55,302 nt of DNA, from positions 1-55,302 of the forward strand of contig JAAEOP010000595.1 of assembly GCA_024223125.1 (NCBI GenBank), in the 5' to 3' direction. This document shows, one piece after another, positions 14,655-55,142 of this stretch. The first letter of the stretch is position 1; every line of letters starts with the position of its first letter. The position numbers and the translations under genes were made by a program. This stretch comes from Chloroflexota bacterium. GTDB taxonomy: Bacteria > Chloroflexota > Anaerolineae > Promineifilales > Promineifilaceae. The notes under the pieces were generated by a model that did no database searches, was not told the origin of the DNA, and saw nothing but the letters and a program-made list of their open reading frames with translations.

Positions 14655-17600
14655 TTAACGCATTCGAATCTGGCCGTAACCTAACGGCCGTTCTATGCCC
14701 GTATCATACACCACATTTTCCGTTCCGTTATCATTCCACCAAATTTTAATGCGAAAAGTGTCATTGTGACGGTCGTTATCCGTCACATACACCATAAACT
14801 GATACCGCTCGCTATTGGGGGCATTACTCCAGTTCACCGTGCCCTCGCCACGATAAATGGCCGTGTCAGAATCTGGCATGAGTAGCAGCCAATCATAATT
14901 CGTCGAGCGGAACCGGAAATCGCCGCCTTGTACACGGAAAAAAGTATGCCCACTAGGAACATCACTACCACGCCGGTAGCGGGAGACAAAACGAAATGTT
15001 GCTATTTCTTCTGCATCGGTGCATTCAGGAGTGTAACTGCACCAACCGGCCAACGTTTCAATCCAACCACCGCCGGTCACAAAGCTACCATGCGGGTCAT
15101 AAACCACAATATGTTCGTAGACTGTCTCTACGGCCGCGCCGGCGCTGTCCGTTAACAAGATGCTAACAACGTAACGGCCGGGAGATGTGTACGTGTGGCT
15201 GGCGCTGGCTGTGCCCATTGTGTCGGGTAAAACCTGGGTGGTATTTTGTCCATCTCCCCAACGCCATTCAATGGTGAGTGTGTCACCGGGATCAACATCT
15301 GTGTATACGGCCGTTGCCGTAATCATTATTCCCACTTGCACTGGATTTGTCGGAGGCACAATGGGACCAATCTGCGGCGGATGGTTGACCTCACACGCAT
15401 CCCCAATACCGTCATTGTCCGCATCCTCCTGGCCCAGATTGGGCACGAGAGGACAATTGTCCACCTGATCATCTACGCCGTCAGCGTCAAAGTCTGACCA
15501 GCGGGTGGGGTCTAAGGGGAAAGCATCTGCATTGTCCGGTACGCCGTCATCGTCGTCGTCGCTGTCACAGGCATCGCCTAAACTATCGCCGTCAAAGTCT
15601 GCCTGGGTTGGGTTGGCTACCAGCGTACAATTATCGCTGCTATCTAATACACCATCATTATCATTATCAGTGTCGCTGTTGTTGCCTATGCCATCATTAT
15701 CTGTATCCACCCATTCACTGTTGTCTTGGGGGAAGGTATCAAATATATCGGCTACCGAATCGTTGTCGGCGTTCAGGTCACAAGCATCGCCCAGGCCATC
15801 ACCGTCAAAGTCAGTCTGCGCCGGATTGTGTACCAGGCGGCAGTTATCCAGGCTGTCTATTACACCGTCGCCATCGCTATGGGCCACGGCCGAAAGAACA
15901 AGGAAGGGTACACCCTGATCCAGCCCCAACGTAACATTACCGGCATCATCTACCGCCTGTATAAAATATTCCAATGTACCGGCGACGGCCGGAATGCTGC
16001 CCGTCGCTTTGCCAGTGGCTGGATTGTAGGTGAGATCAAGGGCTGACCAGGTATTTACGGCCGTGTCCCGATACAACACCACGACCCGATGAATTCCGCC
16101 TGCACTGCTGCCATCGCCGCTGTCATCCAATTCCACATCAAACTGCACCGTCGTCGGCGAAGGAGTAACATCCAGCGCCCAGATATGGGGCGGCAAGAAG
16201 TCCGTTTCTGAGAAGGTTGCCGTGTACACCAGCAAATCCAGGTCGCTGTACAGACGCATGATGCCGATGGTGGGCGTGGCCACGCTGGTGGCCTGGAATT
16301 GGGCGGGCACAACAACCAACCGCTGCTGCAAATCGCCACCCACCGTCAGAAAGCGGTTCATGCTGGCCGACGTACTGGGGTACAACTGCTGCATGGGGTA
16401 GAACCCCTCGCCGCCAACCTTCACCTCCTGGGTAATGATATTGGTGATAACGGGGTCAAAGCCGCTCGTGTCGCTGAACGTTCCCCCCAGCATCAGGACG
16501 CCGTGTACTGTTTCTGTAGGTGAGCCAAAGTTGCGGGTGGTTTGGGGCAGCACCGGACGGCCGCCTGTACTCAGCAAACCATTTTCTCCCTGGATGGTAT
16601 GGTATGTGCCGCTGCGCGTACCATTGTTTACAAAATGGGCGTCGTAGCTGAAATTCAAGGGCATCTGCCAGGCATTAACGCCAGATGGGCCAGTGGAAAG
16701 AGGTGGAGCGCCGCTGTTGAAAACGCTGTCGCCACCGGGAACAACGGCCGTTTGTACCGGCATCTCCACTTGCAACATCGGCAAACCATACAGCACCAAC
16801 TCGCCCAGCACCTTTTCATCATAATTGGTCAGACCGCCCGCTCCCAGGCTGTTAAAGTAACGTTGTTTGGCACGCAGGACGGCCGTGCCCACAGTAGGCA
16901 AACTGTTTATATTACCCGGCGCCGGGTTGTAACCCAGCTCTTCCGTAAAGTTCAATATCAGCCGTTCCGAGTAAGCCAACAGATCCCCATCCCCATACCC
17001 AAAACCGGTGTTGCCCAGGAAGGTAGTTCCCTGCCGGGCAAATGTCTGGGCATAATCGGAGTCGGTGAAAGTGAAGATGGTACGGCCGTCGGCCACATTC
17101 AAACCCGCATGGCAGCCCACAGAAAAGATCAACCGGCCGCTGAAATTTGGCGAGCTATCAAACTCCGTCGCCAGCACATCATCGGGATTGTTGGGGAAGA
17201 AGCGGAAATGGTCAAAGTGAGAATTCAACGACATCAAATCATACGTTTGGGCGCTAAAAGCTGTGTTGCGGAATTGATCAGCCGTCCAACTGTTATTGAT
17301 GAGTGTGTCAACCTGCCCTAATCCCTGTGTGCCCAATGTGCCGCTAATCGCTGTGGCCTGGTCAACCAGGAAATCATATCCCGTCACCAGCGCGTTTTGC
17401 GGCGATAAAATAGGCTGGTGACGGTACGTATCAACCATGGTGGCGATTTCGCCGGGACTTTCTACCAGACGGCCGAGTCCATACTGCGGCAAGTAAATCT
17501 CTCGACCAGCCACACTGGATGGCAGCGTACCGGCATAATAATCATCGCTCAAGTAGTAGCGCAGTTGGGCCGAAGAAAATAGCGCCGGATTGTCGTAAAA

Positions 17601-20405
17601 CAAATATTTACGCTCATTGGCGACCAACGTTGTGTCTTGCAGCCGCCGATGAGGAATGACATCATCGCCGCCAACAATCACCATATATTTTAGATTGGGA
17701 TACGCCGGAACCAGACTGTAAACGAGCGATTTGATGCTGCGGGCAACATAGTTGGCCGCCTGCGGGTTGGCCGGGTCTGCATCCCAAATTGCGTAAGCGT
17801 TCACAATTTTCGGGTAGCTGTCCAGATTGATAATCTCGCCGTTGACGCCGCTATCCCCGGCCAACAAATTGAGCTTATTCACCAAATCGGCCGAAGCCAC
17901 CGTATCCGTTCCCGTGTAAATCTGGTTCATTCGCAGTTGGTTGAAGAGGATGAGGGTTTGGGCGCTGGTTTGAACGGCCGGTACGGTGAAGGTGGGTACG
18001 GCCGTACTGATAATCGGAAATGGGTTATTGGGCGGTACCACATGAGCGCCGATGGTGAAGGATTGGCCAACGGCCGCGGAATTATGAGGCACAACCGCCA
18101 GAAACCAGGGTCCGGCCAATTCATGCACATTGTGGCGAATCTTCTCCGCCGTCTGCGGCAGCGGATGAGCCGAAATCTTCACCAATGTTTCCGCCCCCCC
18201 TTGTGAGCTGATGTCGTCTAGCTGGGCAATGTCATCCAACTGGGCAATATCATCCAGTTGAGCGATGTCGTCTAATTGGGCGATGTCATCCAATTGGGCA
18301 ATGTCGTCTAGCTGGGCGATGTCATCCAGTTGAGCAATGTCGTCTAGTTGGGCAATATCATCCAGTTGGGCCAAATTGTACAGTCGGGCCAAATCATAAA
18401 TTTGGGCAATGTCGTCCAGTTGAGCAATGTCGTCCAGTTGAGCAATGTCATCTAGCTGGGCAATGTCATCCAACTGCGCCACCGACACCAGGTTACCCAG
18501 GTCTCGCAGTTGGCCGTTTTCTTCACTGATGAAAGGTGCAAACAAATACAAATCATAATCGGCATTGCTAGTCACAGTGGCGCTGATGACGGAGCCAGGG
18601 TCAGCTACGTCCAACCGATACCAGTTTGTGTCGTTGTTGGTCACGGCCGTGTCCTGAACCGGTACGCCTTGAACCAGTAATTGGCTGGATGGGCGCGAAT
18701 TATTGCCATCACAGGTATCTACAATGCCATTGTTGTTTGTGTCTGGTCCAATCATGCGATGGAATTCCAGATCGTCAAAATGGTAATTAAAGCCCCAGGT
18801 TTCTAATTGGGCTGAGTAAATGCAAGCGCCGCTAATTGTCAGAGTACCATTGCTGTTTCTTGTATCCTGGCCGATAACGGCCGCTCCTTGTGTTTCAATT
18901 GTATAAGCTGCGCCCGGTTGGTCTCGGCCAATCAAAGTAGCTGGCGGGAGACCAATGTTGGTTACATTTACACTGACATAATCTACGGCAAAATCAAAGT
19001 TGAATAAGGCATCTGTTCCGGCCGGCCAGGTAGCTACGTCCACAATAGCCCCATCATTGCGCGGATAAGAACCACAGCCAGGACAGGTCGGATGAATGTC
19101 ATTGATGGCAAAATCGAAGGTGACACCCTCTGAACCATAACTGTTGTTGAGCAAATCAACAGTAGCCTGACCGGAAGCTGACGTCAGACCGTTGAAGTCA
19201 ATAATAGTATTGGTGTCTGCTTCGTAAGCGCCAATGTCGCAAGCTGCACCCCACGGCCGTAACACACCCCGCTGATCGGCCGTCAAAGCCACGCCATTAT
19301 GATCCAGACAATTTCCCACACCGGCATCAATCCCATTACTTCCGGCCAGGAGGGCGTGGGTTTGGGTGGCGCCGCTGTTGTTAGCCAAAACAGAGTCAAA
19401 ACTGGTCACTGTACCCAGGTTAATGGGACTGCTACCACAAGTGGCGTCATCAATCAGGTTGCCGCCACCGCCGCTAAACGTCGTGCTACATTCGCTGCCG
19501 CTGTTGTTGGTCAGAATGCTGTTGTGGGCGTTGATGGTCGTCGAGCCGGCCGCGTAAACATGGATGCCCCCCGCGCCGGCAGCGGCCATATTATTAGCAA
19601 TCGTCACATTATGCAGATTCACGGTATGAGCTGTACCGCCATTTAACGTAACCAGCATCGCTCCACCTGCATTACCGCCGGCCGTGTTGTTGGAAATAGT
19701 TGTATTAACAAGATTGACAACAGGATTGGAGAGGGGATTATTGCCATCACTTTGCAACGCGCCGGAATCAATCCCGGATTGGTTGTTAGATAGGGTACTG
19801 CCAATGATGGTGAGGGTTCCATTGAAGTTGTAAATGGCGCCACCGGAACCGGAAGATTGATTATCGGTCACGGCTGTGTTCCGCAGCGTCAGATTCCCCG
19901 AATTAAAAAGTGCCGAGCCTTCCCCATAAGGCCAACCAAGCCCGGTATTGCCGTGACGGATGGTGATGTTTTCGATAACGGCCGTGTTCCCTGGCAGCAG
20001 ATGAAAAATACGGCCGATGCCCGCCGCTGTCGTGGAACCAGCCTGCACAATCGTTGTGGCTGCCCCCGCCCCCGTCAATGTAATGTCACTGGCAATGTCC
20101 AGGTCTTCGGTTGCGCCCCCATCTTCATTGATGCCGGTCAGCGTTAAGGTGTACGTGCCCGCCGGTAGATTGATCACATCTGTACCGGACAAAGCATTGG
20201 CCTCTTGAACGGCCGCTCGCAGCGTACATTCATTGGCGGCCGTGGCGCAAATCCCATCCCCCGGCGCAGCGTCTACAGCATCGCTTACACTGTCTACTAC
20301 AAAAGCGTTGGCAAAAACTGGCCTAGATCGAGGAGCAATAAATACGGCAATTCCTAAAATCAGAAAAAAACAAATAAGCCTCAAGCGGCGAGAGAGCGGG
20401 GACAT
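14655..20405 (-). CDS. Giant secreted CSLREX / beta-helix / gingipain-like (C25) / TSP3 / PKD protein
   Basis: A 1916-aa exported protein. In order: signal peptide (LICFFLILGIAVFIAP); CSLREX domain (GICATAANECTLRAAVQEAN); right-handed beta-helix rich in NNTAGG-type turns; choice-of-anchor Q end (GIDAGVGNC...DIGAYE); a C-terminally folded segment; 15 hexapeptides AQLDDI; then a caspase-like C25 (gingipain) region with MVIVGGDDVIPHRR, GLGRLVESPGE, candidate His in SLNSHFDHFRF and Cys in FSVGCHAGLNV. Five Asp-rich thrombospondin type 3 repeats (DGDGVIDSLDNC etc.) bind calcium in known proteins; then a PKD domain and a GSFVTGGGWI module. Likely a cell-surface or secreted cysteine protease or adhesin. 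ATG at 20405 follows AAGGAG; the longer ORF start adds ten non-signal residues. Confidence 0.85.
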   Translation of the reverse strand: MSPLSRRLRLICFFLILGIAVFIAPRSRPVFANAFVVDSVSDAVDAAPGDGICATAANECTLRAAVQEANALSGTDVINLPAGTYTLTLTGINEDGGATEDLDIASDITLTGAGAATTIVQAGSTTAAGIGRIFHLLPGNTAVIENITIRHGNTGLGWPYGEGSALFNSGNLTLRNTAVTDNQSSGSGGAIYNFNGTLTIIGSTLSNNQSGIDSGALQSDGNNPLSNPVVNLVNTTISNNTAGGNAGGAMLVTLNGGTAHTVNLHNVTIANNMAAAGAGGIHVYAAGSTTINAHNSILTNNSGSECSTTFSGGGGNLIDDATCGSSPINLGTVTSFDSVLANNSGATQTHALLAGSNGIDAGVGNCLDHNGVALTADQRGVLRPWGAACDIGAYEADTNTIIDFNGLTSASGQATVDLLNNSYGSEGVTFDFAINDIHPTCPGCGSYPRNDGAIVDVATWPAGTDALFNFDFAVDYVSVNVTNIGLPPATLIGRDQPGAAYTIETQGAAVIGQDTRNSNGTLTISGACIYSAQLETWGFNYHFDDLEFHRMIGPDTNNNGIVDTCDGNNSRPSSQLLVQGVPVQDTAVTNNDTNWYRLDVADPGSVISATVTSNADYDLYLFAPFISEENGQLRDLGNLVSVAQLDDIAQLDDIAQLDDIAQLDDIAQIYDLARLYNLAQLDDIAQLDDIAQLDDIAQLDDIAQLDDIAQLDDIAQLDDIAQLDDIAQLDDISSQGGAETLVKISAHPLPQTAEKIRHNVHELAGPWFLAVVPHNSAAVGQSFTIGAHVVPPNNPFPIISTAVPTFTVPAVQTSAQTLILFNQLRMNQIYTGTDTVASADLVNKLNLLAGDSGVNGEIINLDSYPKIVNAYAIWDADPANPQAANYVARSIKSLVYSLVPAYPNLKYMVIVGGDDVIPHRRLQDTTLVANERKYLFYDNPALFSSAQLRYYLSDDYYAGTLPSSVAGREIYLPQYGLGRLVESPGEIATMVDTYRHQPILSPQNALVTGYDFLVDQATAISGTLGTQGLGQVDTLINNSWTADQFRNTAFSAQTYDLMSLNSHFDHFRFFPNNPDDVLATEFDSSPNFSGRLIFSVGCHAGLNVADGRTIFTFTDSDYAQTFARQGTTFLGNTGFGYGDGDLLAYSERLILNFTEELGYNPAPGNINSLPTVGTAVLRAKQRYFNSLGAGGLTNYDEKVLGELVLYGLPMLQVEMPVQTAVVPGGDSVFNSGAPPLSTGPSGVNAWQMPLNFSYDAHFVNNGTRSGTYHTIQGENGLLSTGGRPVLPQTTRNFGSPTETVHGVLMLGGTFSDTSGFDPVITNIITQEVKVGGEGFYPMQQLYPSTSASMNRFLTVGGDLQQRLVVVPAQFQATSVATPTIGIMRLYSDLDLLVYTATFSETDFLPPHIWALDVTPSPTTVQFDVELDDSGDGSSAGGIHRVVVLYRDTAVNTWSALDLTYNPATGKATGSIPAVAGTLEYFIQAVDDAGNVTLGLDQGVPFLVLSAVAHSDGDGVIDSLDNCRLVHNPAQTDFDGDGLGDACDLNADNDSVADIFDTFPQDNSEWVDTDNDGIGNNSDTDNDNDGVLDSSDNCTLVANPTQADFDGDSLGDACDSDDDDDGVPDNADAFPLDPTRWSDFDADGVDDQVDNCPLVPNLGQEDADNDGIGDACEVNHPPQIGPIVPPTNPVQVGIMITATAVYTDVDPGDTLTIEWRWGDGQNTTQVLPDTMGTASASHTYTSPGRYVVSILLTDSAGAAVETVYEHIVVYDPHGSFVTGGGWIETLAGWCSYTPECTDAEEIATFRFVSRYRRGSDVPSGHTFFRVQGGDFRFRSTNYDWLLLMPDSDTAIYRGEGTVNWSNAPNSERYQFMVYVTDNDRHNDTFRIKIWWNDNGTENVVYDTGIERPLGYGQIRMR
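18210..18479 (-). repeat. 15 x 18-bp tandem repeat coding AQLDDI hexapeptides
   Basis: Exactly 270 bp. Thirteen units code AQLDDI; two in the middle code AQIYDL and ARLYNL. Units differ mainly at synonymous positions (GTC ATC/GTC GTC, CAA CTG/CAG TTG), so the peptide rather than the DNA seems kept. In the phase L-D-D-I-A-Q each unit fits the hexapeptide rule [LIV]-[GAED]-x-x-[STAV]-x of left-handed beta-helices. Confidence 0.9.
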
Positions 20406-20435
20406 GATTTTCTCCTTATACAATATCACTACCAA

Positions 20436-31683: not shown

Positions 31684-34326
31684 ATGAAACCTGTGAAATC
31701 TATAAAACTGTTGAGCCTGCTCTTGATTTTGCTGCTGGCTCTGGCTGCCTGTGGTGGCAGTGCGTCGGAAGAGGTTGTTGGCGAAGATAGCAGCGCCACA
31801 GAAACAGACTCAGATACCGGTTCAGATGCAGACGCCGAAGAAGAAGCTGCGGAAGAGGAAGCGGCCGAAGAAGAACAAGAACCTGCCGAAGAAGAAGCGG
31901 CCGAAGAAGAAACTGTGGCCGAGGCATCAGGCGACCCGATTGTACTTGGTGGTCTGGCCCCATTGTCTGCACCCGGTGCAGTGGTTGGCGGCGAAGCGAT
32001 GCGCGACGCCATGATAATCGCTGTGGATGAATTGAATGAAGCTGGCGGTATTTTGGGCCGTCCGGTGGAATTGGTGATTGTAGATACGGAAGGGTTGCCA
32101 GAACGGGGCACGGCCGTGATGGAAAAACTGATCAACCAGGATAACGTCGTGGCTATCGGCGGCGGTTACCACAGCTCTGTGGGTCGCGCGGCCAAAGAAG
32201 TGGCCCATGATAATGGCACCCCCACTGTGTTCGCCGAAACCTGGAACGATGCCATTACCGGCGACATGCAGCGTGAGATTTTCCGTATTGCGCCGCTCAA
32301 TTCTGAGGTATCGGCCGTTGACGTGAAATTTGTCACCAGCCTGCCCGGCATTAGCAAAGTAGCCATCGTCACTGAAAACACCGATTACGGCATCCCGGCG
32401 GCGGAAGCCACCACCAACGGACTGTCTGAATTGGGCATCAAAGCCGTTACCTTTGGCGTAGACATTGGCACACAGGACTTTGCCGGTATCGTCGAGCGTG
32501 TGAAAGCGGAAAGCCCAGACATGATTATGGTGCTGACCACAGGTGAAGCGGCCTACAACTTCCAACAGCAAGCGGCCGATGCTGGCATTGGCCCGCAGGA
32601 TTTGCCTATGCTGTGTAACCAGGTTTCTCTGGAAAGCACTGCCTTCTGGCAAAATGTGCCCGATGGCAACTACTGCTTTATACGGCGCGTTGGTTTACCC
32701 ACTGAGCTGTACAATGACGTCGCCGAGTCTTTTGTGGCCCGATACATAGACCGCACTGGCAAACAAGCGGCCGAATCTTATGCCCTGGAAGCGTATGATT
32801 CCATCATGATTATCGCCCAGGCTATTGAAGAAGCTGGCTCCACCGACGCCGACGCCATCATTGCCGCCCTGGAAGGTATCACCCATGAGGGTACGCTGGG
32901 AACCATCACGTTCCCTTATGGCGAGAACAATCCCCCGGCCGACAATGGCGCTGAAGATAAATGGTGGCATCAATTCCCCGATCCGGCCATCACCATTGTG
33001 CAGTACCAGGAAGAAGGACAGGATTCAACCGTCGCTCCCGTTGTCTTCCCTGACAGCTATAAGACAGGTAATGTCTTTATTGGCGGCGAGGAAGTAGAAA
33101 TCTCCAGCGACGCCCAAACAGTACCTACTGGCGGCGAAGAAGAGATGGCCGCTTTAGAATGTGACGGGCCGATCAAACTTGGCGGTCTGGCCCCATTGTC
33201 CGCTCCTGGCGCTGTCGTTGGCGGCGAAGCGATGCGCGATGCCATGATTATCGCTGTGGATGAATTGAATGAAGCAGGCGGTATCCTGGGCTGTGAAGTC
33301 GAGTTGATTATTGTAGATACGGAAGGGCTGCCAGAACGGGGCACGGCCGTCATGGAAAAACTGATCAACCAGGATAACGTCGTAGCCATCGGCGGCGGCT
33401 ATCACAGTTCTGTGGGTCGCGCGGCCAAAGAAGTGGCCCATGACAATGGTACGCCAACTGTCTTCGCCGAAACGTGGAATGACGCTATTACCGGCGACAT
33501 GCAGCGTGAGATTTTCCGTATTGCGCCGCTCAATTCTGAGGTATCGGCCGTTGACGTGAAATTTGTCACCAGCCTGCCCGGCATCAGCAAAGTAGCCATC
33601 GTCACTGAAAACACCGATTACGGCATCCCGGCGGCGGAAGCCACCACCAACGGACTGTCTGAATTGGGCATCGAAGCCGTTACCTTTGGCGTAGACATTG
33701 GCACACAGGACTTTGCCGGTATCGTCGAGCGTGTGAAAGCGGAAAGCCCAAACATGATTATGGTGCTGACCACAGGTGAAGCGGCCTACAACTTCCAACA
33801 GCAAGCGGCTGACGCCGGCATTGGGCCGGGAGACCTGCCCATGCTCTGTAACCAGGTTTCTCTGGAAAGTACCGCCTTCTGGCAAAATGTACCGGATGGC
33901 AACTATTGCTTCATTCGGCGCGTTGGTTTGCCCACCGAGTTGTACAATGACGTAGCCACTTCTTTTGTGGCCAGATACACGGAACGCACCGGCAAAGAAG
34001 CGGCCGAATCTTATGCCCTGGAAGCGTATGACTCCATCATGATCATCGCTCAGGCTATTGAAGAATCTGGTTCGCTCGACCCAGATGTGATCATTGCCAC
34101 GTTGGAAGGTATCAGCTATGAGGGTACCTTAGGCACAATTACCTTCCCCTATGGCGAGGGCAATACGCCGGCCGACAATGGCGCTGAAGATAAATGGTGG
34201 CATCAATTCCCCGACCCGGCTATCACCATTGTTCAGTACCAGAACGAAGGCGAAGATTCAACAACGGCGACTGTTGTCTACCCCGAAATCTACCAGACTG
34301 GCGATGCTGTTATCAGCGGTCAGTAA
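31684..34326 (+). CDS. Branched-chain amino acid ABC transporter lipoprotein with two tandem SBP domains
   Basis: An 880-aa lipoprotein; LLALAAC places the lipidated Cys at residue 23. A strongly acidic linker (about 35-85, Glu/Ala runs) leads to two copies of a periplasmic-binding fold I protein of the LivJ/AmiC type: copy 1 about 88-498, copy 2 about 499-880, a 411-codon (1233-bp) period. Both show VGGEAMRDAMIIAVDELNEAGG, IIVDTEGLPERG, IGGGYHSSVGRAAKEVA and TVFAETWNDAITG. Family members bind Leu/Ile/Val, amides or urea. The protein is first in a five-gene operon. ATG at 31684 follows AAGGAG. Double SBPs could raise local ligand capture for one permease. Copies differ by a few residues only. 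Confidence 0.9.
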   Translation: MKPVKSIKLLSLLLILLLALAACGGSASEEVVGEDSSATETDSDTGSDADAEEEAAEEEAAEEEQEPAEEEAAEEETVAEASGDPIVLGGLAPLSAPGAVVGGEAMRDAMIIAVDELNEAGGILGRPVELVIVDTEGLPERGTAVMEKLINQDNVVAIGGGYHSSVGRAAKEVAHDNGTPTVFAETWNDAITGDMQREIFRIAPLNSEVSAVDVKFVTSLPGISKVAIVTENTDYGIPAAEATTNGLSELGIKAVTFGVDIGTQDFAGIVERVKAESPDMIMVLTTGEAAYNFQQQAADAGIGPQDLPMLCNQVSLESTAFWQNVPDGNYCFIRRVGLPTELYNDVAESFVARYIDRTGKQAAESYALEAYDSIMIIAQAIEEAGSTDADAIIAALEGITHEGTLGTITFPYGENNPPADNGAEDKWWHQFPDPAITIVQYQEEGQDSTVAPVVFPDSYKTGNVFIGGEEVEISSDAQTVPTGGEEEMAALECDGPIKLGGLAPLSAPGAVVGGEAMRDAMIIAVDELNEAGGILGCEVELIIVDTEGLPERGTAVMEKLINQDNVVAIGGGYHSSVGRAAKEVAHDNGTPTVFAETWNDAITGDMQREIFRIAPLNSEVSAVDVKFVTSLPGISKVAIVTENTDYGIPAAEATTNGLSELGIEAVTFGVDIGTQDFAGIVERVKAESPNMIMVLTTGEAAYNFQQQAADAGIGPGDLPMLCNQVSLESTAFWQNVPDGNYCFIRRVGLPTELYNDVATSFVARYTERTGKEAAESYALEAYDSIMIIAQAIEESGSLDPDVIIATLEGISYEGTLGTITFPYGEGNTPADNGAEDKWWHQFPDPAITIVQYQNEGEDSTTATVVYPEIYQTGDAVISGQ

Positions 34327-36832: not shown

Positions 36833-37620
36833 CTGAATTACGTGTGAATGGGATCACCAAGAATTTTGGCGGCTTACAAGTGCTGCGAGACGTTACGTTT
36901 GAGGTGAATGGGCCGGAATTGATTGGTTTGATTGGCCCGAATGGGGCTGGCAAAACGACGCTGACGAATATTCTGGATGGGGCGCTGAATCCTTCAAAGG
37001 GGACAGTGTATTTGAACGGCCGTCGCATTGACGCTATGCCCTCGTATGATGTGGCTAAAGCGGGGTTGGGGCGGACATTTCAGGTAACACGTGCTTTCCG
37101 GCGCATGACGGTGCTGGAAAATATGTATGTGCCGGCGCTGGCGATGCACCCCTCGACAAGGCAGCGAGACGTTAAAGAAAAGGCAATGGATGTGCTTGAG
37201 TTTTTGACAATTGAGCATTTGCGGAATGAATACGGCCGTGCCCTTTCTGGCGGTCAACAAAAATTGCTAGAACTGGGGCGGCTACTCATGCTCGACCCGG
37301 ACGTCATTGTTCTGGATGAACCTTTTGCCGGCGTCCACCCTAAATTGATGGAAATCATCTACAAATACATCTACAAAGTCAACGAAGATGGCAAAGCAGT
37401 CATCATCATCAGCCATGATATGGACACCATTTTTACCCTGAGCAAACGATTGCTAGTGTTGGATTATGGCGATTTGATTGCGGATGGCGATCCGGAAATT
37501 GTGAAGAATGATCCGGCCGTTATAGAAGCATATCTGGGTGTAGATGAAGACGAAGACCTGTACGATGACGAAGAGGCAGAGACGCCGGAAGTAGAAAAAG
37601 AGGAGGCGCAGGATGAGTGA
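36829..37620 (+). CDS. livG: Branched-chain amino acid ABC transporter ATPase LivG
   Basis: A 263-aa ATPase. Walker A is GPNGAGKT (residues 35-42), the signature LSGGQQKLLELGR, Walker B VIVLDEPFAGVHPKLME and the switch histidine is in IISHDMDTIF. ARTFQ-type text (GLGRTFQVTRAFRRMTVLENM) is typical of LivG. The last ~24 residues are almost all acidic (EDEDLYDDEEAETPEVEKEE), an unusual tail that may interact with basic loops or only tune solubility. ATGA overlap with livM and an 8-nt overlap with livF. Confidence 0.93.
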   Translation: MTELRVNGITKNFGGLQVLRDVTFEVNGPELIGLIGPNGAGKTTLTNILDGALNPSKGTVYLNGRRIDAMPSYDVAKAGLGRTFQVTRAFRRMTVLENMYVPALAMHPSTRQRDVKEKAMDVLEFLTIEHLRNEYGRALSGGQQKLLELGRLLMLDPDVIVLDEPFAGVHPKLMEIIYKYIYKVNEDGKAVIIISHDMDTIFTLSKRLLVLDYGDLIADGDPEIVKNDPAVIEAYLGVDEDEDLYDDEEAETPEVEKEEAQDE

Positions 37621-38338
37621 GCAAAATAACACCATTCTGGAAATGAAAGACCTCTATGTAGGCTACTACAGAGACCTTAACATTTTACAAGACCTGAATA
37701 TCAAAATACAAAAAGGGAAAATCACCACTATTCTGGGCGCTAATGGCGTGGGTAAATCCACGACCCTAAAAGCAGTCTACGGCTTCCTCAAGCCAAATGA
37801 TGGCGATATTCTGGTAGATGGGCAGAGTATTTTGGGCGTACCCATCTATGAACGCATCTCTTTGGGATTGGCTTATATTCCCCAGCAGCCGGGTATTTTT
37901 CGGCATATGTCTGTGAAGGAGAATCTGGAAGTAGGCGCCTGGACGTTTCGCAAAGATAAGAAGCGGCTGAAGCAAAAGCTGGAAGAAAATTATGAGCGCT
38001 TCCCCATTTTGCGCGACAAACGGAATCAGAAAACGGGTGAATTGTCTGGCGGACAGCAGCGTATGGTGGAAATCGGCCGTACTCTGATGACAGACCCCAA
38101 AATTATCCTGGTAGATGAACCGACGGCCGGTTTATCCAAGCTGTTGTCGGAAGAAGTGTATAAGATGTTGACTGATTTACGGGATGATGACGGCTTAACC
38201 ATCTTGTTGGTAGACCAGGAAATCCGTCAGGCGCTCAAGATTACGGATTATGTGTATGTGTTGGAATTAGGGCGCAATAAGTATGAAGGCCCGGCTGCTG
38301 ATTTCCAAGATTTGGAAAAGGCGTTCTGGGTGGGATAA
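37613..38338 (+). CDS. livF: Branched-chain amino acid ABC transporter ATPase LivF
   Basis: A 241-aa ATPase, partner of LivG. Walker A is GANGVGKS, LAYIPQQPGIFRHMSVKENLEVGAW is the LivF-type Q-loop region, signature LSGGQQRMVEIGRTLM, Walker B IILVDEPTAGLS, and the switch position is Gln/Asp in LLVDQEIRQAL (His replaced, as is common in LivF, where VEQN is usual). It begins 8 nt inside livG. It closes the transporter operon; an imperfect inverted repeat follows before the aminotransferase gene. Confidence 0.93.
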   Translation: MSEQNNTILEMKDLYVGYYRDLNILQDLNIKIQKGKITTILGANGVGKSTTLKAVYGFLKPNDGDILVDGQSILGVPIYERISLGLAYIPQQPGIFRHMSVKENLEVGAWTFRKDKKRLKQKLEENYERFPILRDKRNQKTGELSGGQQRMVEIGRTLMTDPKIILVDEPTAGLSKLLSEEVYKMLTDLRDDDGLTILLVDQEIRQALKITDYVYVLELGRNKYEGPAADFQDLEKAFWVG

Positions 38339-43481: not shown

Positions 43482-46400
43482 TTAATACTCCGTCTCTCGC
43501 CCTAAAACCATCAGAATCAAGGCCAGGGTTTTTCCGGCCGAGGCTGTGTTTTCGGCCGAGATTTGGTCAGTGGTGTCTACGGCCGTACGCGACACATCTT
43601 GCCACCCTTCCCCACTCAAACTGATAACCGCATATCCATCCCCATTGCCGCCACGAATTTCCCCTTGGGACTCTAGTTGGGCAATACGATTGTACCGTTC
43701 GGCTGGCTGCTCAAATCGGGCCAGATCGTTGGCAGGGGATGCTTTGGTTCCGGCCAGCCGAGCCGTATTTTGCACCATATCCATGAGACGGCCGTTACCC
43801 CCCGTCGCCGCTACCAAATCCCCATTCCCTTCTAAACCGAGGCCGCGCAAATAGATGATGGCTTCGACATCAAACGCATCTTCAAAAACAGTTTTCGCTT
43901 CTAGCAGGTCGTCCACATTCGGCCGGCTGATCACCAGATCATTTTGCTCCGCCCCCTCGCCGCTGTAGGCTACAAACAGAATGGATTTGTTTGGCGTCCA
44001 GGCCGATTCTTCCAGCACCCGCAGCGCTTCCAACAAAATGCCCACACTGTTGGCATTATCCGTCGCATGGGAATAAATGCCGTCTGGGCCAAGAGGCGGC
44101 ATATCATATTGGGCCATCACCACAATCAGATTCTCATCCAGGCCCTGATTCTCACCGGCCATCATGCCCAGCACATGGATGGCGGGAACATCTTGCTGAA
44201 TTATGCCCGTCATCTTCATCTCGGCCAACGCCTGGGTAGGCACATCAATCACCCCATCCAGCCCCAAATCTTCTCGCTGTACGCGCAAACTTTGTATCGT
44301 TTGTCCTGTACCGGCCAGCAGACGATCGGCCGTCTCCTCCGTAATCCAGAAGATGGGTGCATCCTGCCCGATTTGGGTAGGTAGTCCTTCGTTGACAATG
44401 GGGTTCACCGGAGAGAGGGTAAAGCGGCGCTGTACATCGGTGGCATCATCGGTCACAAACAAAACGGCTTGATGCGGCCGATTACGCAAATAATAAAGTT
44501 CCCACTCATCCAACACCATGACGATATTGTTTTCCAGGTCTAAGGCTTCCAATTTGGGGTAGAGGCGTCGTCCCAACACCACCCGGTCAAGCTCCAACTC
44601 CTTCAAAGCCAGGAAGCGAACCTGTCCGGCGGCCGATCCTAAATTACGAAAGAAGGCTGGAAATTCAGCATAATCTTGTCGATACTCCAGCACATCGCCA
44701 CCATCATTGATAGTGAACTGCGGCTTCTCATCTACCGTCTGGTAAAAACGCTGTCGGGTTTGGGCCATACTTAACCCTTCGCCACCCGATTGTAAACCCA
44801 GAGCGCGGAATTGTTGTTGCAAATAATCGGCCGCATCATAATAACCAGAAGACCCCAACGCTCGACCCATTCGTTCTGCGGCCGTTAGATAATCTGTGTA
44901 AGCAATAGCGTTTTGGGCGTCAAATGTCTCCATGTCTTCCCGATAATAGCGGATGGGGCCAACGTTGTTACGGCTCCAGGCCACCAGGAAGAAGCTGGCA
45001 ATGATTAAAGCGACAGTGTATTTGTTCAGCAAGCGGGAAACGGCGACGCTGTTCTGGTCTACGATGCGCCGCAGCCCTTCAGCCAGCAAGTTAAAGCCCA
45101 TGATGGTGATGAAGAAAGCGGCCGCCGGATAGACAGCCATCCAGGGGTAAGCGCGAGTGACGCCGCGAGCGGCGTTGAGCATAGCCCCCCATTCAGGTAC
45201 ATCGGCAAAAAAGCCAAAATCGGAGGCTGCCCCGCCGCCAATGAAGATGCCGATGAAGGCCAATTCGCCTAACAACACCAACACGGCCGCCGCTTCTAAA
45301 GCCAGCAAAGAAACAAGCATAGGGGCCAAATTGGGCAGCATGTGAAAGGAGACGATGCGGGTGGTACGCTGTCCGGAGGCTATGGCGGATTCGATGTAGG
45401 GCAACGGTCGTATCTTAATCACCTCGCCGCGTACAAATTGCATAATTTCTGCCCAACCCACAAATGACATGGCGATAATAAAGGTACGCATCCCATTTTG
45501 CAGCCCAATCGCCAAAATAAAAATCATGACCAACAGCAACGTCGGGAAAGCGGCTAGAATTTCGGCCAGATTGAGCATGAAGCGGTCAAACCAACTGTCG
45601 GCAAACCAGCCTGTCAGCGTACCCATAATCAATCCTACCAGCAGGCGAATCACAACGACGACGACAGCCAGGGTCAATGTTTGCTGCGCCCCGGCCAACA
45701 CCATCGCTTGAATGTCACGGCCGATACCATCGCTACCCCAGGGATATTCATTGCTGGGTGGGAAAGGAGCCACATAATATTCATCCCCAATTTTGGCCGC
45801 TACCTGAGTGTCGTAGGGGCTACGCGGTGTAAAATCTGCCCCAAACACATAGATGAACGCCAACCCAAGAAAGATAAGGATGCCCATGATTAGGGGGAAA
45901 TTACGCAGGCTGCGTGCCCACGGCCGTCGTCGGGTCGGCGCCACTTCAATTTCGGCTACGCTGTCTTCTCCCTGGCGAGCCAGCAATTCTTTGAAGGGGC
46001 TAGGTTCTGGACCGTTTTTGCGCCGTCGCCACCAAGCAGAAATAGGATTGTGGTGTAGGATTCTAAAAAGAGTATCACTTAATTCTTGCAGCCATTGGCG
46101 CATCTGAAAACGGCCGCTTTTCAAAAATACCGGATCATCTCGCAAACGGGGATCAATGGCTCGGTAGGCAATTTCCAACAGCAAATTGATGGTGATAAAG
46201 ATCAGCCCCAGACAAAGCAGGGAGATAATGGCAAAATCGGTATCCCCGGCGCGTAAGGCGTTGAGTAAATTTTGGCCGATGCCGGGCCAACCAAAAAAAG
46301 TCTCTACAACGGGCAGGCTGCTGAGGGAAAAACGCAAGGCCAAACCGATGACAGTGAGAATGGGTACGGCCGCGTTCTTGAACACATGCCGCCACATAAT

Positions 46401-47096
46401 GGTGCTGTTATACAACCCTTTTGACTGGGCAGTACGCACATAATCTTGGCGCAGGGTCTCTTTGATGGTGACAAAAGTGACGCGGGTGATCTGGGCTAAC
46501 GGCCGTCCGGACAGCACAATCATCGGCAAAATCAGATGTTTATCCCAACCAAAGCCGCCCACCGGAACCAGCGGCGAGCCAAATGTTTTGGTGTACTGTA
46601 TAGCCGCCATTTGCAGTAGCACAATACCAAAAAAACTGGGGACGGAAATCCCGATAATGGAGAGCATGAGTACACTCAGGCTTGCATTCTGGCTTTTGCG
46701 GGTGGCGGCCCAGATGCCAGCCGGAATGCCCAGCAAAACTGCCAGCAGCATAGAAGCAGCCAACAAGCCCAGGCTGTTTATGAGCATCGGGGGCAATATG
46801 TCGGCAATGGGGAGCGGACGGCTAAAAAAGATGCCTCGCTGTGAAACTCCCAAATCTCCCTGTAACAATTGACCGATGTAGGAGACAGTCAACGGCAGGG
46901 CGCTTTGCAATGCCTGGCTAAAGGGCATTCCCTGAGCCATATTCATGCCCAAATAGCTCAGAAAGATAATTGCCAGTAGGGTGGCGACGATATTGACTAA
47001 ACGGCCGCCTAGAAAGGCAAATAGTTTCAGCGAATCGCCGGAGGGTTTGCGGGTAGATTGTACGGTTGTGGATGGTTGTTGAATCGCCTGTGTCAC
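43482..47096 (-). CDS. Fused DppB-DppC-type permease with C-terminal M28-peptidase-like domain
   Basis: A 1204-aa polypeptide. Residues ~25-330 are a DppB/OppB permease (GRLVNIVATLLAIIFLSYLG, GDLGVS, EAA loop DYVRTAQSKGLYNSTIMWRHVFKNA, GIGQNLLNA, DPRLRDDP). Residues ~410-720 are a DppC/OppC permease (WGSDGIGRDIQAMVLAGAQQTL, EAA-like region YIESAIASGQRTTRIVSFHMLPN, final AEGLRRIVD). After one more helix (YTVALIIASFFLVAW) comes a ~450-aa outer domain with M28 aminopeptidase form, including VVMAQYD ... ATDNANSVGILLEALRVL ... ILFVAYSGEG ... DTTDQIS. The M28 His (AHxD) is Gln, the GEE pair is GEG and the late His is missing, so it is probably not catalytic. GTG at 47096 follows GAAGGAG. No SBP or ATPase is adjacent. 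Confidence 0.85.
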   Translation of the reverse strand: MTQAIQQPSTTVQSTRKPSGDSLKLFAFLGGRLVNIVATLLAIIFLSYLGMNMAQGMPFSQALQSALPLTVSYIGQLLQGDLGVSQRGIFFSRPLPIADILPPMLINSLGLLAASMLLAVLLGIPAGIWAATRKSQNASLSVLMLSIIGISVPSFFGIVLLQMAAIQYTKTFGSPLVPVGGFGWDKHLILPMIVLSGRPLAQITRVTFVTIKETLRQDYVRTAQSKGLYNSTIMWRHVFKNAAVPILTVIGLALRFSLSSLPVVETFFGWPGIGQNLLNALRAGDTDFAIISLLCLGLIFITINLLLEIAYRAIDPRLRDDPVFLKSGRFQMRQWLQELSDTLFRILHHNPISAWWRRRKNGPEPSPFKELLARQGEDSVAEIEVAPTRRRPWARSLRNFPLIMGILIFLGLAFIYVFGADFTPRSPYDTQVAAKIGDEYYVAPFPPSNEYPWGSDGIGRDIQAMVLAGAQQTLTLAVVVVVIRLLVGLIMGTLTGWFADSWFDRFMLNLAEILAAFPTLLLVMIFILAIGLQNGMRTFIIAMSFVGWAEIMQFVRGEVIKIRPLPYIESAIASGQRTTRIVSFHMLPNLAPMLVSLLALEAAAVLVLLGELAFIGIFIGGGAASDFGFFADVPEWGAMLNAARGVTRAYPWMAVYPAAAFFITIMGFNLLAEGLRRIVDQNSVAVSRLLNKYTVALIIASFFLVAWSRNNVGPIRYYREDMETFDAQNAIAYTDYLTAAERMGRALGSSGYYDAADYLQQQFRALGLQSGGEGLSMAQTRQRFYQTVDEKPQFTINDGGDVLEYRQDYAEFPAFFRNLGSAAGQVRFLALKELELDRVVLGRRLYPKLEALDLENNIVMVLDEWELYYLRNRPHQAVLFVTDDATDVQRRFTLSPVNPIVNEGLPTQIGQDAPIFWITEETADRLLAGTGQTIQSLRVQREDLGLDGVIDVPTQALAEMKMTGIIQQDVPAIHVLGMMAGENQGLDENLIVVMAQYDMPPLGPDGIYSHATDNANSVGILLEALRVLEESAWTPNKSILFVAYSGEGAEQNDLVISRPNVDDLLEAKTVFEDAFDVEAIIYLRGLGLEGNGDLVAATGGNGRLMDMVQNTARLAGTKASPANDLARFEQPAERYNRIAQLESQGEIRGGNGDGYAVISLSGEGWQDVSRTAVDTTDQISAENTASAGKTLALILMVLGRETEY

Positions 47097-47208
47097 AGCT
47101 TCTCCTTCTTCAAGTTTCTGCTTTGGTTGTTTCTGGTTTATACGGGTCAAGACATCAATATTATGAGGTAGACAACAGTGGAAATCAATTTTATGCAAAA
47201 TGCATGGT

Positions 47209-51426: not shown

Positions 51427-51741
51427 CTATAGCCTGAAATGATACCAGACCAAAACCAGTTTGCGTAGTGTCTAACCATAAAAACGTTTGGAAACTCATC
51501 AAAAACAGCGTAAAATCCACTATTCAATAAAACAATAGCAGGTATACTGCCTGCACAATCTGCACGACACACCGCAAAGGAGGCACCTGACAATAATCTA
51601 GCTACATTTCCCCATTCCGCAAAACTTTTAGTGACTTCAAGGGCTAACGCCCGCCATCCACAATTTAGACAATCTGTGGCCTCCCTCCTTCTTTAGGCAA
51701 CAACATTGCCCCCGCCACAAACCTTTGTCTCAGGAGAAAAA
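51427..51741. other. Divergent intergenic region
   Basis: No gene recognised. It separates the minus-strand M16 gene from the plus-strand importer. GCAGG-TATACTG-CCTGC (51539-51555) is a small inverted repeat, a possible operator. CAGGAG precedes the SBP start. Confidence 0.45.
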
Positions 51742-52776
51742 ATGATCAACAAACGCAACATATTCATCCTATTTGGCATCCTAATGCTAGGATTACTCCT
51801 GTCTGCCTGTCAAGGAGAACAGGAAAGCAAAGAACTCAATTTACTCTGCGTACCCCAAGAAGAATGGTGCCAGGGCATGAAAGAAGAATTCGAGAAAGAG
51901 TTCGGCATTACCGTTAATTATGTACGCATGTCCACTGGCGAAGCGCTGGCCCGCCTGGAAGCCGAAAAAGACAACCCTCAATTTGACATTATGTGGGGCG
52001 GCCCCATTGACACCTACATCGCCGGAAAAAATGAAGGCATGTTTGATCAGTACGAATCTCCCAATGTCGAAAACCTATTGGATAAAGACAAATATCTGGA
52101 CCCAGATAATTATTGGGCCGGCATTTACTTAGGGTCACTGGGTTTCGCTACCAACAAAGATTTCCTGGAAGCCAATCCTGGCCTGGAAGCGCCCACTTCC
52201 TGGGATGACCTGCTCAAACCGGAATACCAAGATCAACTCTTGGTAGCCCATCCCTCCACCTCCGGCACCTCTTACACAGCCATGTCCACCATCTTACAGT
52301 TAATGGGCGAAGAGAACGGCTGGGATTTTCTTAACGAATACGCCGATCAGGTATTGCAATTTACCAAAAGTGGATCGGCGCCAGCCAAATTCGTCGGCGC
52401 CGGTGAAGGCGCTGTCGGCGTCGTCTTCTCCCACGACATTGTGAAGCAGATTGAAAACGGGCTGCCGCTGGTGTTGAGCTTCCCCGAAGACGGTACTGGG
52501 TACGAAATCGGTGGTATGGCGATTGTCAAGGGGGCACAGCACCCGGATGCAGCCCAGAAATGGTACGATTGGGCGTTGACGCCAGAAGCGCAGGCTCTTG
52601 GCCCCAAGTACAAAGCATACCAGGCGCCTACTGTCGGCGGCGTGGATTTGTCTTATCCTGAACTATTGGAAGTCAATCTGATTGATTATGATTTCCAATG
52701 GGCCGGCGATAATAAGAAAGATTTTGTAGACAGATTCATCAACGAAATTGCCGGAGCCGAAGATTTGAAACAATAA
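51742..52776 (+). CDS. Fe3+-type ABC transporter substrate-binding lipoprotein
   Basis: A 344-aa lipoprotein; LLLSACQG marks the lipidated Cys near residue 21. The rest is a family 1 extracellular solute-binding protein of the FbpA/AfuA (also PotD/ThiB/PhnS) group. LNLLCVPQEEWCQGMKEEFEKEFGITVNYVRMSTGEALARLEAEKDNPQFDIMWGG is its N-terminal lobe; GLEAPTSWDDLLKPEY and DGTGYEIGGMAIVKGAQHPDAAQKWYDWALTPEAQ are typical. An iron ligand pair of tyrosines near the C-terminus is not obvious, so phosphonate, thiamine or another ligand remains possible. ATG at 51742 follows CAGGAG. The fused permease and ATPase follow. Confidence 0.86.
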   Translation: MINKRNIFILFGILMLGLLLSACQGEQESKELNLLCVPQEEWCQGMKEEFEKEFGITVNYVRMSTGEALARLEAEKDNPQFDIMWGGPIDTYIAGKNEGMFDQYESPNVENLLDKDKYLDPDNYWAGIYLGSLGFATNKDFLEANPGLEAPTSWDDLLKPEYQDQLLVAHPSTSGTSYTAMSTILQLMGEENGWDFLNEYADQVLQFTKSGSAPAKFVGAGEGAVGVVFSHDIVKQIENGLPLVLSFPEDGTGYEIGGMAIVKGAQHPDAAQKWYDWALTPEAQALGPKYKAYQAPTVGGVDLSYPELLEVNLIDYDFQWAGDNKKDFVDRFINEIAGAEDLKQ

Positions 52777-52787
52777 TCTAACGTTTT

Positions 52788-52820
52788 AGATTGGTTCAAT
52801 CTTCAAGATTGAACCAATCT
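52788..52820. repeat. Palindrome family C copy 2 (hairpin)
   Basis: AGATTGGTTCAATCTT, a central C, AAGATTGAACCAATCT: a perfect 16-bp inverted repeat between SBP and permease genes. The outer stem AGATTGGTTCA is identical to the copy at 1394-1426. Confidence 0.75.
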
Positions 52821-52841
52821 TCCACTTCTGGAGAAGGATGT

Positions 52842-55142
52842 ATGACCGCACCCGCAGTTGACCAATCATCTTCCGCAACCACACCCAGCTCCAAACAATC
52901 CACAATTAGAGGTAATCTGGCTCACCGCTATCGTGAGTTTGGACTGATTGCCCGCGACCCGGTGCTTTTGGTTGGTTTATTGCTGGCTGTTCTTTTTATC
53001 CTCACGTTTGTCTTTTTCCCTATCTTTCGGGTGGTTATTCGCGCCTTCTTTGATGAAGATGGCGCTTTTAGCGTGGAATATTTTGCCCGCTATGTTGATC
53101 CATACTTTGCTCCCTATTTATGGCGTTCTTTGCTATCTACTATGATTATGGGTGTCTCCACAGCTACGTTGGGGACGCTGCTGGGTTTTGTTTTTGCCTA
53201 CACGGTGGTGCGTTGCAGCCCGCCGGGAAAGCGTTGGGTACACATTTTGGCGCTTATCCCCATTGTGTCGCCTCCTTTTGCCATTGCCATGGCGACTATT
53301 TTGCTTTTCGGCCGTAACGGTCTCATCACCGCTAAATTTTTGGGCTGGGAATTTACCCAGGGCATGAATGATATTTATGGCATGGACGGGCTTGTATTTG
53401 TGCAGACCATCACCTTCTTCTCTGTCTCTTACCTGATGCTACGAGCTATGCTGGAACGGCTAAACCCGGCCATGGAAGAAGCCGCCCATAGTTTGGGCGC
53501 GTCTAAAATTCACATCTTCCGCACCATCACTTTACCCCTCCTGATTCCAGGGTTGGCAGCCTCCTTTTTGCTGCTTTTTGTAGAATCGCTGGCCGATTTG
53601 GGCAACCCGCTCCTGATTTCCGGGAATGTCAATGTGCTGTCCGTCCAGATTTTTCTGGCGGTAGCGGGAGAGTTTGATTATCAGAAAGCGTCTACGCTGG
53701 CGATTGTGCTGCTGATTCCAACGTTGATTGTGTTTATTGTGCAGCGTTATTATGTCAGCCGCCGCTCTTACGTTTCGGTGACTGGCAAACCGGCCGGCGG
53801 CCAAATTTTGGTCAAGGAACCGATCACTCGCTGGACGTTTATTGTGATTACCTACGCCACGTTGGCGCTAATTTTGACACTGTATTTGTCCATCATTGTG
53901 GGATCGTTCAGCAAGGTGTGGGGCATCAATTATGCTCCCACGTTGGCTCATTGGAAGATGATGTTGAACCGGGGGAATGAAGCGATTATGGATACCACAT
54001 TCTTGAGCGTCATGGCGACGCCTATCGCTGTACTGCTGGGAATGATGATTGCTTTTTTGGTGGTACGCAAGAATTTCAGCGGCAAAGATGGGCTGGATTT
54101 TGGCTCTAATTTGGGCGCGGCCGTGCCCGGTACGATTTTGGGCATCGGCTTTATTCTCTCCTTTGTAGTCTCGCCCTGGCTATTGGTATGGACGCTGTAC
54201 ATTGTGATGGCTTTATTCTTTGCCCGCACCTTGTTCAATACACGCCGGGAGCAATGGATAGCGCTGTCGTTTGGCTCTGTGCTGGCAGGGTTGATATGGC
54301 TTTCGCAGCGGCCGTTGGGGGAAACTGGAGTAATGTATTTGTTGGGCGGACTGTATCTGGCGCTGGCAGTTTATTTCTTTTTCATACGCCACGATAAACG
54401 CTCTGGCAAACTGCTGCTGGGGTTGGGCGTCTATTTGATGATGGCGGATTTGATTCTGTACGTCGCTTATCCCATTGCCAATTTGAGCCGTCAGATTGAC
54501 AGTTCGTTTTGGAGCGATGCAATCTTCCAGTTGTCGGATTATATCCAGGTGTTTTTCCAGGTACCACAAACAATTTTGATGATTCCGTATCTCTTTTTTG
54601 GGGTGGTTATTGTGGATAAGGTGCAGGGTAGGGAACGGCCGTATCTGGCAATCATCTTCCTCGGCTTAGGCGGGGCGCTGGCTTTCGTCGGCGACCCGTT
54701 GGCAATGGTGGGCACGGCTTTCATCATCATATTTGCTTTTGCCGTGCGTAGTATGCCCGCCTCAGTGCGCGCCGGCGTCGCTTCCTTGCAGCAAATTGAC
54801 TCTTCCATTGAAGAAGCCTCCAACAGTCTGGGCGCCGATGCAGAATACACCTTCCGCAAAGTTACTTTGCCCTTAATCACACCCGCTTTATTGGCCGGGC
54901 TGATTTTTGCCTTTACGCGGCACATGACCAGCCTGTCGGCCATTATCTTTTTGGTCAGCCCCCGTTGGCGGATTGTAACTGCTTCTATTTTGAGCGAGTG
55001 GGAACAAGGGGGCGTCAGTTTAGCAGCCGCGTATGCCACGGTCATTATCCTCCTGGTTTTATTGGCGATTGGTTTGATGTATTTAGTAACGACCCGGATT
55101 TTGCAGGGACGCAGCGATGTAGATTTGTCGTTGGGAGCATAA
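52842..55142 (+). CDS. Fe3+-type ABC transporter double permease with membrane insertion
   Basis: A 766-aa protein with two MetI-like permease domains in one chain, as in FbpB. EAA loops are [23 protein letters not shown] (near residue 215) and [23 protein letters not shown] (near residue 660). FbpB proteins are usually about 500-560 aa. The excess is a ~165-residue hydrophobic block (about 445-612) inserted in the second domain between [15 protein letters not shown] and [16 protein letters not shown], which normally follow each other closely. It holds about four to five extra membrane segments with charged loops. Start ATG at 52842 has GGAGAAGG upstream. The ATPase gene begins 4 bp after the stop. 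Confidence 0.87.

Follow-up and report, generated by a model that had tools for sequence, protein, structure and literature searches.

Within the 55,302-nucleotide stretch of Chloroflexota DNA analyzed here (the window), a single gene on the minus strand (43482-47096, 1204 aa) joins both halves of an Opp/Dpp-type peptide permease, of the ATP-binding cassette (ABC) class, to a C-terminal domain with the fold of M28 aminopeptidases. Judged by its residues and those of its relatives, this M28 domain is a conserved pseudo-enzyme, and the dead peptidase may serve as a built-in peptide catcher in place of a separate substrate-binding protein (SBP). We give about an even chance to the reading of it as a tethered peptide receptor that does not cut and that takes over from the SBP. 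The relatives considered here take two main forms, defined by layout and not by descent: a three-part form, like the fusion in the window, and a two-gene form, in which a separate DppB of about 305 aa accompanies a DppC-M28 protein of about 830 aa.

The first-pass annotation, made from the sequence alone, had described one 1204-aa frame holding both permease halves and a C-terminal M28-form domain, and Pfam, a PDB sequence search, and structure prediction agree on this. The frame is open from a GTG at 47096 to the stop at 43482, with an in-frame ATG at 47219 as a possible alternative start, and the plus-strand reading of the same interval contains many stops. Pfam detects BPD_transp_1 in two stretches, one in each half (E 5.8e-44 for the protein), and Peptidase_M28 at residues 975-1101 (36.6 bits against a cut-off of 21.3), with BPD_transp_1 likewise above its cut-off. 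OppB/DppB chains in PDB match residues 31-320 and OppC/DppC chains match residues 387-686. Structure prediction and PDB searches support both the permease and the M28 folds, the C half being of the Opp/Dpp C-subunit type. The features of the gene are as follows (pLDDT, predicted local distance difference test).

43482..47096, minus strand: coding sequence of the DppB-DppC permease with pseudo-M28 domain (frame reading, Pfam, homologue search)
47102..47106, minus strand: AGGAG, likely ribosome-binding site, 5 nt upstream of the GTG start (read in the sequence)
46122..47021, minus strand: DppB half, residues 26-325, with coupling (EAA) loop at 216-248 (BPD_transp_1, PDB OppB/DppB chains, loop compared with 10 Opp B subunits)
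45942..46121, minus strand: linker, residues 326-385, poorly conserved (mean column entropy 3.01 bits, highest among the segments compared; low pLDDT)
45027..45941, minus strand: DppC half, residues 386-690, with coupling loop at 564-596
44964..45023, minus strand: added membrane helix, residues 692-711 (predicted helix at model residues 673-692)
43485..44960, minus strand: M28-fold pseudo-peptidase domain, residues 713-1204, with a PA-like insert at about 775-970

On the basis of DppC topology for the side of the membrane, the added helix at 692-711 should place the chain that follows it outside. The assignment of that chain was tested against the possibility that it fits a non-peptidase family better, which is rejected: its best alignments are to M28 proteins, Peptidase_M28 is the sole Pfam match besides the permease domain at E values up to 1, and M28-fold structures head both structure-match lists, an M28-plus-PA assignment covering nearly the whole domain. 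In the structure search, PA-domain M28 aminopeptidases share its fold and layout over 363-385 residues. The VIA-align rows contain no SBP fold for this domain, which by itself is uninformative; it is instead positively assigned as M28 with PA.

Positions within the site are given in the metal-ligand numbering that we take to be that of the Aeromonas aminopeptidase (AAP).

44109..44111, minus strand: Gln 996, at the AAP metal ligand His97 (profile and family alignment)
44058..44060, minus strand: Asp 1013, at the bridging metal ligand Asp117, kept (profile and family alignment)
43953..43958, minus strand: Glu 1047-Gly 1048, aligned with the general base/metal ligand pair Glu151-Glu152 (alignment uncertain by two residues)
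43845..43847, minus strand: Arg 1084, at the AAP metal ligand Asp179 (profile and family alignment)
43587..43589, minus strand: Arg 1170, at the AAP metal ligand His256 (profile and family alignment)

The site thus reads Q, D, E-G, R, and R, and the M28 set of five metal ligands and general-base Glu is not retained. Three of these changes had been named earlier and are borne out: the His of the AHxD motif is Gln (AQYD at 995-998), GEE has become GEG (SGEG at 1045-1048), and the late His is lost, with Arg 1170 at its position. To these is added the loss of the ligand equivalent to Asp179 of AAP, now Arg 1084. The residue that replaces the metal-binding Glu is ambiguous, because an acidic residue, Glu 1050, lies two places past GEG (Glu or Asp in 44/60 three-part fusions) and the profile alignment with AAP has a two-residue gap.

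The loss of catalytic residues extends across the family. We aligned 159 domains with MAFFT: 60 from three-part fusions, 69 from the two-gene form, and the 15 first and 15 second domains of giant M28 proteins, many of them encoded near two-gene loci. All five metal ligands are present in 15/15 first giant domains, which also have the general base in 15/15, and in none of the 15 second giant domains or the 69 two-gene domains, where the general-base position is Glu in 0/69 (2 gaps). As to whether homologues keep metal ligands, raised by the first-pass annotation as a check, none of the 60 three-part fusions has all five. These counts include near-copies (e.g., L053 = P0033). The three-part form comprises 61 sequences, a number that includes the sequence of the window twice; P0002 (that of the window) and four three-part fragments misplaced with the two-gene form (P0007, P0027, P0098, and P0101) were left out before counting, and nine short IIfrag entries and the split gene of L070 were also unused. 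A core of 44 three-part sequences, including the window, is defined by the EG motif, so that the Glu151/Glu152 counts hold there by construction. Across the core, the His97 position never holds His and is occupied by Gln in 41 sequences; the Asp at Asp117 persists in 37; Arg has replaced Asp179 in 38; and at His256, 24 sequences have Arg and 4 have His. Up to four of the five ligands are kept in the 16 three-part sequences outside it.

The strongest single clue for a receptor is a cluster at L094:876-10112 (G407:C121), in which one DppB gene is followed by three tandem DppC-M28 genes, combining a near-constant permease and varied M28 domains with one common B subunit. Identity among the paralogues is 84-88% in the C permease part, 86-94% in the added helix, and 58-63% in the M28 domains, and all three carry His, Asp, Glu, Asp, and His at the ligand positions and Gly in place of the general base. 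Binding would seem to have been retained and cutting lost, with variation in the outer part; these domains would be the mildest case and should bind metal, perhaps peptide, without cutting.

Since core, two-gene, and L094 domains lack different residues, the branches lost catalysis in different ways, as expected once catalysis no longer matters. This pattern bears on the alternative that the domain is a metal-poor enzyme of other chemistry acting on peptides at the channel mouth, for which glutaminyl cyclases, as M28-fold non-peptidases, offer a comparison. With no His in the core at His97, Arg at Asp179 in 38 of the 44, and His kept at His256 in only 4, we regard such an enzyme as highly improbable.

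The pseudo-site itself appears to be under selection. For ten columns around it, from which the EG pair 1047-1048 was excluded since it defines the core, mean entropy in the core is 0.42 bits, compared with 1.73 domain-wide, and 0/20000 random column sets are as low, also when drawn from columns 975 on. For all 60 sequences the values are 0.65 and 1.99 bits, with 0/20000 random sets as low, or 2/20000 when drawn from columns 975 on.

In the mechanism that we favor, a single polypeptide would combine the membrane part of an Opp/Dpp-type peptide importer with a receptor of its own. The receptor would be the M28 domain, a counterpart of the intact one in the giants; it would lie outside and hold peptides uncut over the permease mouth, pass them to the channel in the role otherwise taken by free OppA/DppA, and set specificity. 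ATP hydrolysis would probably come from an OppD/OppF-type pair encoded elsewhere and common to the ordinary Opp systems of the cell. Of the earlier description of a ligand-binding pseudo-enzyme at the permease mouth, the M28 fold and the loss of catalysis, now family wide, stand on structure searches and alignments, whereas its outer location and peptide binding are what we infer, as are the receptor role, the ATPase partner, and the direction of import.

A number of observations weigh against this proposal. A column set shifted by 20 residues is also low in entropy (0.79), and the contrast is weaker for the five ligand columns taken by themselves (302/20000 in the core, 1239/20000 in all 60). 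Because M28 motif columns lie in core strands, conservation of the site may be partly structural, and faster change in the outer domain than in the permease would also be expected under relaxed constraint. SBP_bac_5 proteins are encoded in 30/30 carrier genomes, so an ordinary SBP may still serve the fusion; an SBP_bac_5 gene lies within 5 kb in 3/32 three-part loci and 0/20 two-gene loci (BLAST with two reference SBPs). BLAST searches with one OppD and one OppF revealed no OppD/F pair inside 5 kb at any of the 32 three-part loci. One carrier genome, G375, is without an oligo_HPY match and is possibly incomplete, and the three OppDF regions read in G254 (a 5.35 Mb contig of a 5.4 Mb genome) have permease genes of their own. 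The coupling loop of the C half is no nearer to Opp C subunits than the remainder of that half (0.32 versus 0.30, from four sequences that amount to two pairs of near-copies). Finally, at least three relatives with a fused ABC ATPase domain adjoin genes of the export kind, MacB_PCD/FtsX and HlyD at L082 and L090 and HlyD at L080.

With respect to the ATPase, for which the first-pass annotation had proposed a search elsewhere in the genome, no partner was found beside the fusion, either in the window (by eye) or, as an OppD/F pair, in any of the 32 relative loci. OppD/F-type domains occur in 29/30 carrier genomes searched. The fusion would probably draw on a shared ATPase. An orphan OppDF pair as a dedicated ATPase was not found in the three G254 regions or in the G036 and G069 stretches read. 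The single ATPase match within 5 kb among the 32 loci, at L041, lies among sugar-importer-like genes (by eye); 9/32 of these loci end less than 1.5 kb from an edge of the stretch read. An OppDF-SBP operon near L034 and L035 was considered as the fusion's own and rejected, since it holds a separate OppB and OppC; in the corresponding operon of L036, a separate C-like frame was seen and a separate B was not seen in the frame map. The absence of an SBP gene beside the fusion, as first reported, is upheld, with none of the Opp type seen next to it in the window (by eye) and none found within 5 kb in 29/32 three-part loci.

The neighborhoods also bear on the possibility that the M28 domain is a docking platform, recruiting an ordinary SBP or a giant M28 peptidase and thereby allowing immediate uptake of peptides cut nearby. 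A giant is encoded within 5 kb in 14/20 two-gene loci (the L059 giant is cut by the contig end) and DppB is adjacent in 17/20, which would suit this arrangement, as would the SBP_bac_5 genes near 3/32 three-part fusions. Thirteen of the 15 giants aligned belong to those 14 loci, the other two being those of L055 and L070. In 10/14 such loci, a protein of about 400 aa, predicted to have a single membrane helix, is encoded between fusion and giant, and PD40 propeller repeats were matched in the three scanned (L053, L066, and L071). A lipoprotein-like neighbor of about 590 aa occurs in 5/32 three-part loci, from three separate places in the tree:

L034:12652-14445, L035:12968-14848, L036:9718-11481, L038:11265-13022, L046:4991-6802: neighbor of about 590 aa

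This neighbor reached no Pfam cut-off in the four scanned (L034, L036, L038, and L046). Its model, from five sequences, is all-beta with C-terminal (membrane) helices (pLDDT 75.3), and its best Foldseek matches are enzymes such as BT3686 and sialidases, which we take to be propeller enzymes, making the neighbor presumably propeller-like. Propeller proteins with membrane segments would therefore adjoin members of both forms, which is consistent with docking, and the transferrin receptor and nicalin, recovered by profile, are M28-like parts of larger assemblies. However, searches within 5 kb found no giant at any of the 32 three-part loci and an SBP at only 3/32, neither was seen in the window (by eye), and no giant was found in the 16 kb read around the L094 cluster. 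Taken together, we consider docking unlikely. As a separate observation, the giants of L044, L057, L067, and L070 have 2019-2057 aa and 6-9 predicted membrane helices, with DUF418 in L044 (the one scanned).

The nature of the permease is relevant to a further alternative, namely, that it works outward like the SapBC kind while the outer domain holds or passes on an exported peptide. Both halves have coupling (EAA) loops, reading DYVRTA..KGL...H...N..P in B and ESA..G...H.LPN in C beside Opp sequences, and the B-half loop is closer to Opp B subunits than the remainder of the half (0.43 versus 0.28, 10 sequences). SapB and SapC, named as putrescine export permeases, are among the NCBIfam matches, but the Sap models are outscored by those for Nik, Opp, and Dpp, narrowly so for the B half (SapB 110.4, DppB 111.8, and OppB 114.6 bits), and none of the models attains its curated cut-off. 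Among the structural matches shown, those to permeases are to subunits of Opp/Dpp importers. Genomic context could be cited in favor of export, given that some ABC-fused relatives adjoin MacB_PCD/FtsX and HlyD genes, parts of export machines. There are six ABC-fused relatives (L080-L084 and L090; 1440-1486 aa), which start with an ABC ATPase domain (a Pfam match in L082, the one scanned, and by eye in the others). Three of them (L080, L083, and L084) have an intact Walker A motif, which the other three (L081, L082, and L090) have lost; in none of the six has the signature motif escaped degeneration (by eye). L081, L083, and L084 have neighboring frames similar in size to MacB_PCD/FtsX and HlyD, judged by size, L084 being without an HlyD-sized frame. 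Export neighbors accordingly concern at most 6/32 three-part loci, and we find an exporter quite improbable.

The family is broad enough to speak to the integrity of the gene. A search with the C-terminal region, in which 7993 candidates were scored, returned at least 31 proteins including the window's own, all 31 carrying PF04389 and PF00528 and three being shorter than 930 aa; the protein searches scored only the 7993-7998 candidates with most shared words, so their counts are lower bounds. The closest other match among those scored, a 1202-aa protein from another assembly, is 78% identical over the C-terminal region, and the three-part order is seen in other assemblies, as had been proposed for checking. 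Joining of the frame by assembly error was tested for and gave no sign; it is rejected on the at least 30 other proteins with both domain types and on the genome matches listed, which are free of internal stops with one exception. A functionless relic or assembly artefact could draw on the lack of evident operon partners in the window, but it is contradicted by the conservation described above, by the 78%-identical homologue with at least 29 further relatives, and by the place of the window within a well-supported set of 25 three-part members (SH-aLRT 97, Shimodaira-Hasegawa-like approximate likelihood ratio test, C-half tree), and is scarcely credible.

A sample of 396 genomes from the class of G002 (a Caldilineaceae metagenome-assembled genome, Chloroflexota, that contains L002) includes 69 with a match to the C-terminal domain at an E value of 1e-10 or lower, the two-gene form and giants being among the matches. 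A phylum-wide draw of 400 genomes gave 3 matches at 1e-20, two of them already in the class sample; the contrast is only indicative, because the cut-offs differ. Source names seen for family members are Chloroflexota, and a name from Planctomycetota is that of a distant M28 protein without a permease domain. From the two-gene M28 region, a protein search gave at least 61 matches, 51 with both domain types. At least 16 matches are candidates for stand-alone M28 domains, mostly on contigs below 10 kb and three marked partial, and we claim neither presence nor absence of such proteins. Some three-part fusions have an N-terminal TPR-like extension (P0008, P0009, and P0030 by Pfam, others by eye). 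At L037:688-8262, two complete three-part fusions of 1227 and 1220 aa lie in tandem.

In the C-half tree (75 rows), 71 family rows are separated from four Opp C subunits (SH-aLRT 100), with long outgroup branches. The three-part form is not one clade in this tree: the six ABC-fused proteins together with L085 and L086 group with the two-gene form (support 92). As eight three-part fusions sit on the two-gene side, joining or splitting of B and C occurred more than once. With the C half as query, 45 carrier genomes gave 61 places at 3.4e-64 or better (40-55% identity), 60 of them in frames of at least 817 aa; the other (G247, L070) is a 497-aa frame with the M28 part in the next frame. The next places, at 4.2e-38 or worse and at most 36% identity, are mostly in frames of about 300 aa and are ordinary C subunits. 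Frame lengths thus suggest that, in these genomes picked as carriers of the M28 domain, C halves of this clade are not seen without an M28 part. At three loci the match was confined to the permease part, and a search of their genomes with the M28 domain came back empty, which proves little.

In the window, names being assigned by eye, the fusion gene is flanked downstream by lysS- and greA-like frames and upstream by two alpha/beta-hydrolase-like frames, with 510 bases to the greA-like frame and about 600 to the hydrolase-like one. No Opp-type SBP gene or OppD/F-type ATPase gene was seen adjoining it (by eye), and the ABC ATPases at 36829-38338 resemble LivG/LivF of a branched-chain cluster. 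Further features, their kinds likewise judged by eye, are listed separately.

31945..34326, plus strand: 895-aa frame with an internally duplicated binding protein of the branched-chain amino acid kind, the copies 91.6% identical over 382 residues (DNA 88.7% over 1142 bases)
14655..20435, minus strand: large protein with a run of near-identical IAQLDD-type repeats
51706..55142, plus strand: lipoprotein-like binding protein, then a 783-aa permease resembling two fused halves, the second fused ABC permease of the window

To our knowledge, peptide ABC importers of the Opp/Dpp family work with SBP-fold receptors. Compared with E. coli DppBCDF (8z1v-8z1z) and OppBCDF (8z21) and M. tuberculosis DppABCD and OppABCD, the fusion differs by its joined halves, the added helix, the M28 domain, and the lack of an SBP or OppD/F gene alongside. 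GlnPQ and OpuA are SBP-fused ABC importers whose linked domain has the SBP fold; in them an extracytoplasmic domain is covalently joined to the transmembrane part, as would also be the case in the fusion if its M28 domain lies outside, as DppC topology predicts. Importers of the GlnPQ kind are treated in a published account (PMC8025302). In contrast, the domain linked in the window has the M28 aminopeptidase fold with a PA insert and not the SBP fold. PA-domain M28 aminopeptidases (Bacillus BSAP/YwaD 6hc6/6hc7, Aneurinibacillus 2ek8, and P. aeruginosa PaAP) are alike in fold and layout, whereas the domain in the window is without the full metal ligand set and is tethered to a permease. Transferrin receptor, nicalin, and nicastrin, the last also an M28-fold member, are not known to have peptidase activity and likewise have an M28-like ectodomain on a membrane anchor, nicastrin and nicalin standing beside a membrane complex. 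Nicalin has been modelled on nicastrin in one report (PMC7505659). These three differ in being eukaryotic and outside ABC transporters. Enzyme-like ectodomains at transporters are also present in LAT1-4F2hc and B0AT1-ACE2, where the ectodomain is a separate subunit of another fold and the transporters are secondary. For Thermoflexus, the portion of a study that deals with M28 peptidases and Opp transporters mentions no fusion (PMC8129789). No description of an M28 domain fused to a BPD_transp_1 permease was found in the open-access literature (main texts), in keeping with the first impression that this architecture is not a described system. As far as could be seen, the parts are of known kinds, and their combination with conserved catalytic loss is undescribed.

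In terms of annotation, the names "M28 family peptidase" and "ABC transporter permease subunit" each hide half of the fusion, and the first asserts an activity that the residues do not support. We tentatively propose, with somewhat less than even confidence, that in a lineage of Chloroflexota the SBP of a peptide ABC importer was replaced by silenced exopeptidases: the giant M28 protein would trim peptides outside, the dead M28 domain on the permease would catch them, and duplicated dead copies with a common B subunit would set the diet, the form in the window holding all but the ATPase in one protein. If true, ABC importers would have a class of receptors with no relation to the SBP fold. It would also represent a route from degradation to uptake, in which a peptidase was turned into a receptor and kept across many genomes, often near a protein with the full catalytic set.

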